Shown: one piece after another, positions 171 through 35,137 of the stretch | Layout of the letters: each line of letters opens with the position of its first letter | Numbering within the stretch: position 1 is the first letter of the stretch | Source: a bacterium | GTDB taxonomy: Bacteria; Patescibacteriota; Patescibacteriia; Patescibacteriales; JAKAJF01 | Assembly (NCBI GenBank): GCA_021788015.1 | Contig: JAJYLD010000008.1 | Location: 1-56,699, forward strand | Length of the DNA stretch: 56,699 nt | Direction of reading: 5' to 3' | Notes under the pieces: model-generated | Database searches by the model: none | What the model was told of the DNA's origin: nothing | Seen by the model: only the letters and a program-made list of their open reading frames with translations | Position numbers and translations under genes: made by a program

Positions 171-938
171 TTATCCTCTAACGTCACATTTCTTTGCATA
201 CTTCTTCGCTATTTCCAGCATCTCTTTCATTTCTTTTTCCGAAAATCTGGCCTTATTTTGAAAATTTTTATTTACCAAATCCGTATCACTTTTAAAGAAT
301 TGCAAATACCATTTGTCCGCGCCCGCGATCAGCTTTCCCATCTCTTCGATGTCTTCTTTTTTATGCAAACTTGGTACAAGTGTCGTTCTGAATTCATACG
401 AAACGCCGCTCTCTTTTATTATTTTAATGCTTTTTTGTATATTTTCCAAATTTACCCCGTTAAATAGCTTTGCTCCGGCTTCGCCGGATTTAACGGGACG
501 AACCTTAACTCCGATCACTTCTTCATATTTATCCAGGGGCGCTTTGATATCCATGGCCAAATAATCGATTAATTTTTCTTCGAGAACTTTTTCAAGCATC
601 TCGGGATTGGTCCCGTTCGAGTCCAGTTTTATTTTAAAACCCGCGTCTTTTATTTTTTTGATGAAGTCGGGCAAATCTTTATGCAAAGTCGGCTCGCCTC
701 CGGTAATAACCACGCCGCTCAATTTTCCTTTGCGCGATTTCAAAAAAGCAAAGAGATCATCCTCTTTGATTCGGGAATGATCTCTTTGATATTTCAACTT
801 GCCTTCCTTTTCGGGCCAGACAAGCATAGGGTTATAACAAAATTGACAACGAAAATTGCATCCTTGCGTGAAAACGATGGCGGCCAATTCACCGGGGAAA
901 TCGATTAATGTCAATTTTTCTAAGCCGCCTATAATCAT
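171..938 (-). CDS. nrdG: Anaerobic ribonucleoside-triphosphate reductase activating protein (radical SAM)
   Basis: CNFRCQFC (CxxxCxxC) radical-SAM motif, TGGEPTL, MDIKAPLDKYEEV; adjacent to nrdD. Confidence 0.9.
   Translation of the reverse strand: MIIGGLEKLTLIDFPGELAAIVFTQGCNFRCQFCYNPMLVWPEKEGKLKYQRDHSRIKEDDLFAFLKSRKGKLSGVVITGGEPTLHKDLPDFIKKIKDAGFKIKLDSNGTNPEMLEKVLEEKLIDYLAMDIKAPLDKYEEVIGVKVRPVKSGEAGAKLFNGVNLENIQKSIKIIKESGVSYEFRTTLVPSLHKKEDIEEMGKLIAGADKWYLQFFKSDTDLVNKNFQNKARFSEKEMKEMLEIAKKYAKKCDVRG
456..497. repeat. 42-bp palindromic element inserted in frame within nrdG
   Basis: CCCGTTAAAT...ATTTAACGGG (10-bp inverted ends) plus inner TCCGGC-TTC-GCCGGA; encodes PVKSGEAGAKLFNG inside NrdG. 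Confidence 0.8.
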
Positions 939-1392: not shown

Positions 1393-3465
1393 TTAACATT
1401 CCACACAGCCTTTTACATCTTCTAAACCGTCGTCAATTACCATAACTCCTTCTTTGTATCCCATCTCTTCATCGCATTTCGGGCAATATTTATGCTCGCC
1501 CGACAAATAGCCGTGCTTGGGACAGATCGAAAAGGTGGGGCTGATTGTATAATAGGGCAATTTGTAATTTTCCGCGATTTTTTTCACCAGTCTTTTGCAA
1601 TTTTCCGGATCATCGATTCTTTCGCCCAAGAAACCGTGCAAAACCGTGCCGCCGGTATATTTCGTTTGCAATTCGTCTTGCAAATCCAAAGCTTCAAAAA
1701 TATCGTTCGTAAAACCGACGGGGAGGTGGGTCGAATTGGTGTAATACGGATCCGCTCCGCGTCTTACCGCTTCTTCGTTGCCGACGATTATGTCCGGATA
1801 CAATTCTTTGTCTTTCTTGGCGAAACGATAACCGGCGCCTTCGGCCGGAGAAGCTTCGAGATTGTATAAGTTGTTGGTTTCATTTTGATAATCCATCAAT
1901 TTGTTGCGCATAAAATCCAAAATTTCCAAAGCGAATTCTTTGCCTTCTTTCGCGGCTATGTTCGTGCCCAGCAAATTGACAACGGCTTCGTTCATGCCGT
2001 TGATCCCGATGGTGTTAAAATGGTTTTGCCAATAAGTTCCGAATCGCTTATGAATGTCATCTAGATAAAATTTTGAATAAGGATAAAGGCCGTCTACCGT
2101 AAATCTTTCGATTATTTTCCGTTTTATTTCCAAACTTTCTTTGGCCATATCCATGAGTTTTCCCAATTTCTTTTTAAATTCGTTTTTGTCTTTGGAGAGA
2201 TGACCGATTCTCGCCAAGTTAATCGTAACAACGCCCAAGCTGCCGGTCAAAGGGTTGGCGCCGAACAAACCGCCGCCGCGTTTTCTCAGCTCCCTGTTGT
2301 CGAGTCGCAAACGGCAGCACATACTGCGGGCGTCGTCGCGTTTCATGTCCGAATTGATGAAATTGGAGAAATAAGGAATGCCGTATTTTGCCGTCATCTC
2401 CCAGACCGGTTTCAATACAGGATTGTCCCAGTCGAAATTTTTATCGATATTGTAAGTCGGAATCGGAAAAGCGAACACGCGCCCGGTGGCGTCTCCTTCA
2501 AGCATGACTTCGGCAAAGGCTTTGTTGAACATGTCTATTTCCTGTTGAAATTCTTTATATTTCTCCGGCATATATTTGCCGCCGATGATGACATGCTCTT
2601 CTCCGGTTTGTTCGGAAGGAATGACGTCCAAAGTGACATTGATGAACGGAGTCTGAAAGCCGACGCGAGTGGGAACGTTTACGTTAAACAAAAATTCCTG
2701 CAAGCATTGTTTCACTTCTCTGAAAGTCAAATCGTCATAACGAATAAAAGGCGCCAAATAAGTATCGAAATTGGCGAATGCTTGCGCTCCGGCCGCTTCG
2801 CCCTGCAATGTGTAAAGGAAATTGACGATTTGCCCGAGAGTGCTTCGAAAATGTTTCGGCGGTTTGGATTGCACTTTTTCGCTGACGCCGGCGAATCCTC
2901 GTAGCAACAGATCTTTTAAATCCCAGCCGCAACAATAAGGAGCGAGCATGCCGAGGTCATGGATATGAAAATCGCCGTTGATATGCGCGTCCCGGATTTC
3001 CTGGGGGTAAAGTTTATTCAGCCAGTAGCGGGCGGACACGGAAGAGGCTATATAATTATTCAAACCTTGCACGGAAAAACTCATGTTCGAGTTTTCCTTG
3101 AGACGCCAATCCGCTTGGCCCAAATAATCCCGCATTAATTTTTCCTCGTCGATTTTCCGATTCAATTCGCGAAGCTGGCGATGTTGCTCGCGGTAAATGA
3201 TATAGGCCTTAGCCGCTTTGGCCTGTTTGTTATTGATCAAAATATCTTCGACAATGTCCTGAATTTCTTCAACCGCCGGTATTGATCGCGAATGAAATTT
3301 TTCATTAAGCCTCTTCAGGGTTTGGGAAGCCAAATCCATGGCGAGTTTTTCATCCCTGGTGCCGACGGCTTCCAAGGCTTTAAAAATGGCTTTGGAGATT
3401 TTTTCTTCGTTGAAATCGACGATTTCTCCGGAGCGCTTGATAATTTTCGTGATTGAGTTCTGCAT
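1393..3465 (-). CDS. nrdD: Class III anaerobic ribonucleoside-triphosphate reductase
   Basis: ATP-cone N-terminus (KIIKRSGEIVDFNEEKISKAIFKAL), RNR barrel, Cys-rich C-terminus; start probably at internal Met4 of the ORF. Confidence 0.93.
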   Translation of the reverse strand: MQNSITKIIKRSGEIVDFNEEKISKAIFKALEAVGTRDEKLAMDLASQTLKRLNEKFHSRSIPAVEEIQDIVEDILINNKQAKAAKAYIIYREQHRQLRELNRKIDEEKLMRDYLGQADWRLKENSNMSFSVQGLNNYIASSVSARYWLNKLYPQEIRDAHINGDFHIHDLGMLAPYCCGWDLKDLLLRGFAGVSEKVQSKPPKHFRSTLGQIVNFLYTLQGEAAGAQAFANFDTYLAPFIRYDDLTFREVKQCLQEFLFNVNVPTRVGFQTPFINVTLDVIPSEQTGEEHVIIGGKYMPEKYKEFQQEIDMFNKAFAEVMLEGDATGRVFAFPIPTYNIDKNFDWDNPVLKPVWEMTAKYGIPYFSNFINSDMKRDDARSMCCRLRLDNRELRKRGGGLFGANPLTGSLGVVTINLARIGHLSKDKNEFKKKLGKLMDMAKESLEIKRKIIERFTVDGLYPYSKFYLDDIHKRFGTYWQNHFNTIGINGMNEAVVNLLGTNIAAKEGKEFALEILDFMRNKLMDYQNETNNLYNLEASPAEGAGYRFAKKDKELYPDIIVGNEEAVRRGADPYYTNSTHLPVGFTNDIFEALDLQDELQTKYTGGTVLHGFLGERIDDPENCKRLVKKIAENYKLPYYTISPTFSICPKHGYLSGEHKYCPKCDEEMGYKEGVMVIDDGLEDVKGCVEC

Positions 3466-3598
3466 GGGGAACAAAATAATTTATAATTTCTAATTTTTAA
3501 TTTTTAAACAATTTTTAATGATTCAATTTTAAAACTTTTTCATTGAAAATTGGAAATTGTTTGAAAATTGCAAACTGAAAATTGAAAATCTTTTATTT

Positions 3599-4078
3599 TT
3601 ATTTGCTTTTTTTATAACCCGTCTTTTTCTCTTTCATCAACTTGTTCAGTTCTCTTCGAAACGTATGGACGTCTTTGAAGGATTCGTAGACGCTCGCAAA
3701 CCGGATATAGGCGACTTGATCGATTTTTTTGAGGTGCTTCATGACAAGCTGGCCGATTTGATTCGAGGTTACTTCGTTTTTGCCGATGATTTGCAAGTCC
3801 CGTTCGATCGCGTTTACCAGTTTTTTAAAGTTATCTTCCGTTATCGGCCTCTTTTCAAGCGCCTTGTGCAGCCCTTTTGTCAATTTTTCCCGCGAATAGG
3901 TTTCTTTTTTGCCGTCGCGCTTGATTACGGCCAAATCGAGAATTTCGATTTCTTCGTAAGTCGAGAAGCGAAAGCCGCACTTAAGACATTCTCGCCTGCG
4001 CCTTATGGCCGAGCCGTCGATAACGACGCGGGAATCGATTACTTTTGTGTCATTATGATGACAAACTGGGCACTTCAT
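3599..4078 (-). CDS. nrdR: Transcriptional repressor NrdR
   Basis: MKCPVCHHNDTKVIDSR...IRRRRECLKCGFRFSTYEEIE Zn-ribbon plus ATP-cone. Confidence 0.95.
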   Translation of the reverse strand: MKCPVCHHNDTKVIDSRVVIDGSAIRRRRECLKCGFRFSTYEEIEILDLAVIKRDGKKETYSREKLTKGLHKALEKRPITEDNFKKLVNAIERDLQIIGKNEVTSNQIGQLVMKHLKKIDQVAYIRFASVYESFKDVHTFRRELNKLMKEKKTGYKKSK

Positions 4079-4303
4079 CCCGTTAGAAGCAGACCCCGGT
4101 AGTACACCTCGTAAACTCGGTGACTACGGGGCGAGACGTAGTTAAAAATAAGTTTTGTGCGATAGAACTTGTTCCGTAGTCAGATCCGATAGGATTTACG
4201 GTTTGGGATCGTGATCGTTTGATTTGCATAAATCATTATAAATTTACGAATCCTTAAACTTACTTTATTCTTTCCTGCTAAAGCGACCTCGACTTCTAAC
4301 GGG
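4079..4303. repeat. CCCGTTA palindromic/MITE-like element, copy 1 (225 bp)
   Basis: Terminal inverted repeats CCCGTTAGAAG...CTTCTAACGGG; flanked by TTCAT (4074-4078) and TTCAT (4305-4309); interior shared with copy 2. Confidence 0.8.
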
Positions 4304-34033: not shown

Positions 34034-35137
34034 ATGGAAAAAAATCAAAAAAATCTAAAATTTTTCGTAGCCTTGGGTCATTTCCCAAAATTCGGTCCGG
34101 CTCGGCTCAAAAAATTAAAAAAATTTTTTCCAGATCCGGAATCGGCGTTTAACGCGGACGCGAAAACTCTGGTCAAGTCCGGAATTGAAGAAAATATCGC
34201 CAATGAATTCATTTCCGCTCGCACGAGCATCAATCCGGACAAAATTTTCGATTGGCTTCTTAAAGAAAACATAAAAGTTTCAACTTTGGAAGATCGCGCG
34301 TATCCGAAACTTTTAAAAGAAATTTTTGATCCGCCCCAAATTCTTTATTATAAAGGCGCTTTCGATGAAAACGAAGAGTTTAATTTGGCCGTGGTCGGAA
34401 CAAGAAAATTTACTCCCTACGGCCAAAGAGTCACGGAAGAAATCACAAAAAATCTTGCGCAAAACAATCTCACGATCGTAAGCGGACTGGCCTTGGGCAT
34501 CGACGCTCTCGCTCATTACGCCGCCCTGGAGGGAGGAGGAAGGACGCTCGCCGTTTTGGGTTCCGGTTTGGACAGAGAAAATATTTATCCCGCTCAAAAC
34601 CGTCTTCTGGCGGAAAGAATAATCAAAGAGGGCGGCGCGATTATTTCCGAATTCCCCTTGGGCACCGCTCCTCTGCGCTTTAATTTCCCCCAAAGAAACC
34701 GCATCGTTTCCGGCATGTCTCTCGGCACCTTGGTGATCGAAGCCGATGAAAAATCAGGCGCTTTGATTACGGCCCGGTTCGCTCTCGAACAAAACCGGGA
34801 AGTTTTTGCCGTTCCAGGAAATATTTATTCGAATGTTTCTCGCGGCACCAATTTTCTGATCAAGGAGGGGGCGAAGCTGGTCGCCAAGGCGGATGACATA
34901 ATCGAGGCCTTGAATCTTAAGCAGGTGCACACGTTTCTGGACAATAAAAAAATAATTCCCGAATCGAAGGAAGAAGAACTTATTTTATCTTTTATTCGCG
35001 AGGAACCCAAGCATGTTAACGAGCTTGTCCGCCTGACAAGACTTGACACAAGCAGAATAAATAGTACACTGGCAATTATGGAAATGAAAGGAATGGCGCG
35101 AAATTTAGGCAATATGCAGTATGTCGCGGCCAGATAA
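34034..35137 (+). CDS. dprA: DNA processing protein DprA
   Basis: VVGTRKFTPYGQRVTEE, SGLALGIDALAHYAAL, FPQRNRIVSGMSLGTLVIEA, C-terminal winged helix. Confidence 0.96.
   Translation: MEKNQKNLKFFVALGHFPKFGPARLKKLKKFFPDPESAFNADAKTLVKSGIEENIANEFISARTSINPDKIFDWLLKENIKVSTLEDRAYPKLLKEIFDPPQILYYKGAFDENEEFNLAVVGTRKFTPYGQRVTEEITKNLAQNNLTIVSGLALGIDALAHYAALEGGGRTLAVLGSGLDRENIYPAQNRLLAERIIKEGGAIISEFPLGTAPLRFNFPQRNRIVSGMSLGTLVIEADEKSGALITARFALEQNREVFAVPGNIYSNVSRGTNFLIKEGAKLVAKADDIIEALNLKQVHTFLDNKKIIPESKEEELILSFIREEPKHVNELVRLTRLDTSRINSTLAIMEMKGMARNLGNMQYVAAR

Follow-up and report, generated by a model that had tools for sequence, protein, structure and literature searches.

A 42-bp palindrome within nrdG of a Patescibacteria genome is very probably a translated, non-autonomous mobile element

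The evidence from the comparison of nrdG with its homologues and from the search for related sequences indicates that the 42-bp sequence studied here is very probably a non-autonomous mobile palindrome, which was inserted in nrdG and is translated within the protein. The element is a member of a family whose insertion is proposed to copy approximately 6 bp of target and whose copies within genes survive in frame. The analysed window was an entire contig (C12; 56,699 bp) of the 1.13-Mb genome of an ultra-small bacterium, in 13 contigs, and the whole-genome searches were run on rejoined stretches covering 1.13 Mb. All the compared genomes were draft assemblies of uncultivated organisms. The features of the nrdG region were as follows.

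171-938, minus strand: nrdG, radical-SAM activase of anaerobic ribonucleotide reductase (NrdG2 type; TIGR02495, 5e-65; Pfam Radical_SAM and NRDD)
450-455, minus strand: 6-bp flank, GTAAAT on the coding strand, present in the empty site of G040
456-497, no strand assigned: 42-bp palindromic element in frame within nrdG, its minus strand predicted to encode PVKSGEAGAKLFNG; identical 42 bp at G047:C21:29720-29761
456-465, no strand assigned: outer arm CCCGTTAAAT, 10-bp pairing with 488-497
466-474, no strand assigned: inner hairpin AGC-TTT-GCT, perfect, 3-nt loop
475-487, no strand assigned: inner hairpin CCGGC-TTC-GCCGG, perfect, 3-nt loop
488-497, no strand assigned: outer arm ATTTAACGGG, pairing with 456-465
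498-503, minus strand: 6-bp flank, GTTCGT on the coding strand, missing from the empty site; putatively either a target-site copy that has diverged or bases carried by the element
1393-3474: nrdD, adjoining nrdG

The NrdG protein reads ...IGVK-VR-PVKSGEAGAKLFNG-VNLENIQKSI and contains 16 extra residues, VRPVKSGEAGAKLFNG, which were absent from all 49 NrdG homologues of the order; the segment was thus ruled out as an ancestral part of NrdG. The alignment upheld the lineage-specific, in-frame insertion proposed in an earlier note on this DNA, although its size was corrected to 16 aa, or 48 nt (the 42 bp plus 6), in comparison to the homologues. None of them carried the peptide without the palindrome, which was the case that the note had set against its own reading. 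In the closest homologue (G040, 73%), the site is empty and GAP is joined straight to VNLENIQKSI; at the DNA level, aaatttac is followed directly by tggcgctcc, where the window has 48 nt more. The closest match of the NrdG structure model (mean pLDDT 90) was pyruvate formate-lyase activase 3cb8, with which the fold agrees. Placement on this model, as proposed earlier, located the inserted residues, 146-161, in a flexible loop that lies between helices 135-142 and 164-175 and has a pLDDT of about 50. Because the insert is predicted to occupy such a loop, NrdG probably still works. The enzyme tolerates insertions at loops, since its relatives carry other repeat peptides there: in G012, the loop corresponding to that of the window's insert holds another repeat-type peptide, and other homologues have further repeat peptides at two more loops. 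In-frame loop peptides seen in relatives (L091, L093, L094, L098, L104) included ACAKASAGKP.., RSEAISVKSHSPEIASSSRGGTPRND.. and PSPSKGEG.., one of them at the loop of the window's insert. Separately, the NrdG of G040 (L062) lacks 12 residues including the radical-SAM cysteine motif (CNFRCQFCYNPM) with the frame kept, which is either a real loss or an assembly error.

Bases 456-497 read CCCGTTAAAT AGCTTTGCT CCGGCTTCGCCGG ATTTAACGGG and constitute a perfect 42-bp palindrome with a T shape, in which a 10-bp outer stem carries two perfect inner hairpins that fill the whole interior. The earlier note described a single inner hairpin, TCCGGC-TTC-GCCGGA; there are two, AGC-TTT-GCT and CCGGC-TTC-GCCGG. 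Folding of the segment as single-stranded DNA returned exactly the T structure (z = -3.2). This result, the matches of the strict pattern given below (reversed control, 0) and the rarity of such structures in the genome show that the palindrome is not due to chance. A sequence-blind scan of the 1.13-Mb genome for perfect T-shaped double hairpins recovered only the nrdG copy and one A/T-rich palindrome. There was no Rfam match at the 42-bp element or at the leaders of the long elements described below, the only match in the window being one tRNA, and a known RNA family was therefore rejected as the identity of either.

A search with the pattern CCCGTTARAN{10,40}TYTAACGGG located 67 short relatives, distributed over 17 of 78 related genomes (reversed control, 0). 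They are T-shaped and 29-58 bp long. Among 111 genomes of the order, 12 contained a strict pattern, CCCGTTAAATN{10,40}ATTTAACGGG, whose reversed control had no match, and the strict CCCGTTAAAT form occurred in 7 of 389 genomes drawn from the class, so the family is patchy. The constancy of the outer stem is partly due to the search, which required it. The inner arms were left unconstrained; the interior consisted of two perfect hairpins in 32 of the 40 distinct elements of testable length, as compared to 0.35% of shuffled interiors. The inner arms vary widely: they differ freely from one locus to the next, and elements at a single site can differ too. The nrdG palindrome is the single short copy of the source genome, and an identical sequence (42/42 bp) is present in G047, a member of another family of the order, at a different place in the genome; these two observations argue that it is mobile. 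Its arrival in the source genome was presumably horizontal. G047 belongs to an element-rich family, together with G062, G070, G074 and G032. A 51-bp variant palindrome, CCCGTGAAAT..ATTTCACGGG (L027:10681-10731, contig C8), was rejected as a second short copy in the source genome, as it lies in another frame within a UvrC-like ORF (C8:9339-10910), which also holds a repeat-like segment, LLRPSPTPLLIRRGIKGEA. The outer-stem pattern had no match in a viral contig collection, and a viral vector for the short elements was ruled out on these grounds.

The sequences flanking the short elements point to target copying. Homologous sites were excluded and every copy was read on the coding strand before the test. 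The 6-bp direct flank identity was 95, versus 76.3 for shuffled flanks (0/5000), with a peak at exactly 6 bp and none at 4, 7 or 8. In nrdG itself, the two flanks (GTTCGT and GTAAAT) are identical at 3 of 6 positions. The family consensus was GTTMAC/CCCG..CGGG/GTAAA. The left copy is GTTCAC at many sites, and thus some of the six bases may belong to the element rather than to the duplicated target.

Length was divisible by three in 30 of the 31 copies located within ORFs (of at least 150 aa) versus 13 of the 36 other copies (p = 9e-8). Some of this excess is inherent in the comparison, as a copy that shifts the frame would cut the ORF short, and this survivorship is what the proposed model predicts: copies of a multiple of three in a stop-free frame would leave the host gene open and survive inside it, and purifying selection would leave only in-frame copies within genes. 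The frames used by the ORF copies were PV[KR]..[FS]NG (22) and PL..LTG (9). The expectation of PV[RK]..NG insertions in other ORFs was borne out in related genomes, where there are many, but not in the source genome, which has none. Aligning the decorated proteins of other genomes to the source genome revealed empty orthologous sites in rpoC (RNA polymerase beta'), lepA, rplR (uL18), atpG (ATP synthase gamma), recJ and fpg, as well as in the genes for a penicillin-binding protein, a TIGR00375 protein (which carries two tandem elements in a relative), a flippase-like protein and others. MnmA of G024 is decorated too, and its alignment gave no clean gap. Given the in-frame nrdG copy and the sister palindromes in frame in essential genes (RNA polymerase, a ribosomal protein), these lineages are, judging by their genomes, tolerant of a spreading DNA element written into core proteins. 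Copies with a length not divisible by three (40, 49, 50 and 58 bp; L113, L116, L183, L185, L188, L190, L192 and others) lie mostly outside long ORFs and show extended inverted flanks (e.g., GCTCGC..GCGAGC) resembling terminators.

These terminator-like copies and the retained perfect pairing could also be expected of a functional RNA or DNA structure (a terminator, an attenuator or a protein site) under selection, rather than of a selfish insert. The same applies to uL18, where G047, G062 and G032 share a site with 0-1 differences in the 51-bp element, while the remaining gene differs by 25-32%. However, copies of the element are scattered over unrelated genes, patchy and usually missing in sister genomes, and the free variation of the inner arms is hard to reconcile with a conserved structure. 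The uL18 element is missing in sister genomes of the same genera, with a possible remnant (VHPAKG) in G074. Because the bases on either side differ up to the very edge of the element, we favour recent repeated insertion of one circulating copy over strong conservation, and such insertion accounts for the identity equally well. In a second gene (orthologous to window 44945-46396), the elements of G062 and G032 occupy one and the same codon and differ in their inner hairpins, and a decayed left half is present in G070. A selected structure is, in our judgement, unlikely.

The source genome additionally contains long elements, CCCGTTAGAAGC..GCTTCTAACGGG, which measure 113-120 bp or, where they contain extra inserts, 193-231 bp. 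Most have ATGNNN on either side. Three long elements are located in the window.

4079-4303, minus strand: long relative of 225 bp with CCCGTTAGAAG ends, inserted precisely at the nrdR start codon (gene at 3599-4078), as ATGAAT-element-ATGAAG
40607-40895, minus strand: long relative, degenerate at one of its ends, which contains a nested 75-bp palindrome (40636-40710) and abuts the ATG (40606) of a ComF-like ORF, with ATGAA on both sides
41507-41622, minus strand: long relative of 116 bp, directly next to the ATG (41506) that starts an ORF of roughly 200 aa (MKKYFGFLMILIG...)

At nrdR, ATGAA is present on both sides of the element, and 16 homologous genes have an empty site with a plain start, mostly ATGAAA. 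Of the 18 orientable long copies, 17 end exactly at ATG and one at GTG, and 16 of the right-hand frames have at least 129 aa. The genes behind them presumably include those for LigA, IF-2, GAPDH and phosphoglycerate mutase, as read from the N-terminal sequences. The oriented 6-bp flank-repeat count was 87 versus 81.7 (p = 0.001); it was used because counting without fixed orientation overstates the signal. The earlier note had connected the nrdG palindrome with MNPVRSR leaders; the ends are indeed the same, but the leaders belong to this longer relative sitting at start codons. The leader ORFs are 10-34 aa long, and TATAAT lies shortly upstream of some. Several of the long elements also have another conserved repeat, CCCCGGTAGTACACCTCGTAAACTCGGTGACTACGGGGCGAGACG, nested within them (window 4079-4180, C1:157100-157154, C1:263700-263768). 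Long and short forms are linked by their common ends and by the 6-bp repeat in their flanks, and we infer that both were moved by the same enzyme. The start-codon elements, with the same ends as the short ones, point to a dependence of insertion on a short target found at many gene starts.

The proposed explanation comprises a T-shaped family with the outer stem CCCGTTARA/TYTAACGGG and two exchangeable inner hairpins, distributed across families within a single Patescibacteria order and also outside it. On insertion, about 6 bp of target with a consensus near RTNAAN would be duplicated. An enzyme acting in trans would move the element, either like a MITE or as a single-strand hairpin, and the T fold of its single-stranded DNA would be in keeping with an intermediate of transposition or replication. 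The nrdG peptide would be translated and near-neutral. Between paired ends in the source genome, six ORF-sized intervals bounded by CCCGTTA were found and none was transposase-like, which ruled out an autonomous transposon there.

The palindrome could instead be a REP element that was mobilised by a Y1 (RAYT) tyrosine transposase and landed in the gene by chance; it is short, and REPs within genes have been described (PMC3733652). The source genome has two Y1 matches, and a Y1 enzyme is present in G000 and some others. However, neither G047 (98% complete, 9 strict copies) nor G070 (4 strict copies) has a Y1 match, and Y1 was rejected as the mover for this reason. The stem is symmetric and perfect, the GTAG tag is missing, and Y1 transposition leaves no target duplication, in contrast to the 6-bp repeats observed. 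We regard this explanation as decidedly improbable. One Y1 transposase motif, YIHNNPVKKEFVEKPEDW (L043, contig C8, about 34640-34700), has the coding sequence AATCCCGTTAAA, which is identical to the end of the element, probably by coincidence. Tentatively, and at somewhat less than even chance, all the elements could belong to one unrecognised Patescibacteria transposition system with CCCGTTAR ends and 6-bp RTNAAN targets. At ATGAAN starts, the duplication would copy the start codon, so that the gene keeps an ATG behind a structured leader; within genes, T-shaped double hairpins would be placed in frame, and copies would exchange inner hairpins with pairing kept perfect, and essential proteins (RNA polymerase beta', uL18, LepA) would carry translated elements.

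An assembly or binning artefact, i.e., a foreign or chimeric contig, would fit the position of nrdG near the contig end, the sole short copy and the draft state of the assembly. Nevertheless, nrdG has an intact ORF continuous with nrdD and nrdR, the genome has a completeness of 100% and a contamination of 0.81%, and the same contig bears the genome's own long elements, which makes an artefact very hard to believe. Replication template switching can generate palindromes, yet a birth of this one within nrdG, with convergent likeness to the others, is almost certainly not the case, as the outer stem is common to 67 loci and the identical 42-bp copy in another family refutes it unless contamination is involved.

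In-frame selfish palindromes are known mainly from Rickettsia and Wolbachia. The mobile palindromes described here form a distinct, much shorter family, which is spread between families of uncultivated small-genome bacteria and resides in core proteins (RNA polymerase, uL18); a non-exhaustive literature search returned no report of such elements in Patescibacteria. The family accounts for recurrent 'PVKS..NG' peptides and warrants caution in reading them as functional domains, and the natural pairs with and without the insert allow the cost of a translated mobile element to be tested.

MITEs (Correia/NEMIS, RUP, ERIC, Coxiella MITEs) have terminal inverted repeats and target-site duplication but no transposase of their own, and in-frame fusions are known. 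This description fits the long CCCGTTAGAAGC elements well. Terminal inverted repeats of 10-12 bp are present, and target-site duplication is seen as the 6-bp direct repeat excess, explicit at nrdR and imperfect (3/6) at nrdG. The long forms (75-231 bp) are within the MITE size of 70-300 bp, whereas the short in-frame forms (29-58 bp) are below it; unlike MITEs, the long forms lie almost only at start codons, with no parent transposase found between paired ends in the source genome. Mitochondrial genes of Nematomorpha contain perfect inverted repeats within coding sequence, with dynamic gain and loss (PMC6649704). These differ in lineage and are much longer. They are not known to have a shared end sequence or a flank repeat. 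REPs are palindromes of 20-40 bp, sometimes within ORFs, and include GTAG/CGTC-tagged repeats (PMC3733652). The short elements resemble REP/RAYT in size, palindromic form and intra-ORF copies, but they have a perfect outer stem and 6-bp direct repeats and carry no GTAG or CGTC tag, while REPs have a GTAG tag beside an imperfect hairpin and a Y1 transposase in the same genome, in contrast to G047 and G070. The Rickettsia elements (RPE) are described as having a length of 105-146 bp and long stem-loops and lie in frame in conserved protein genes (PMC2229807), and CGTC stands at one end of RPE-4 and RPE-6 of R. conorii (PMC3733652). CGTC is not a feature of our family; the window's TTCGT/CCC reads CGTC across the junction, and other copies do not. 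Short length (29-58 bp), the T shape with two exchangeable hairpins and the 6-bp flank repeat set the Patescibacteria elements apart from RPE descriptions. The term RPE-like thus holds as an analogy (in-frame copies in conserved genes), while membership in the Rickettsia RPE families is unsupported in size, end tag, lineage and architecture; what is shared with RPE and the Wolbachia palindromic elements is in-frame residence in conserved protein genes with the host protein intact, together with copies outside genes.
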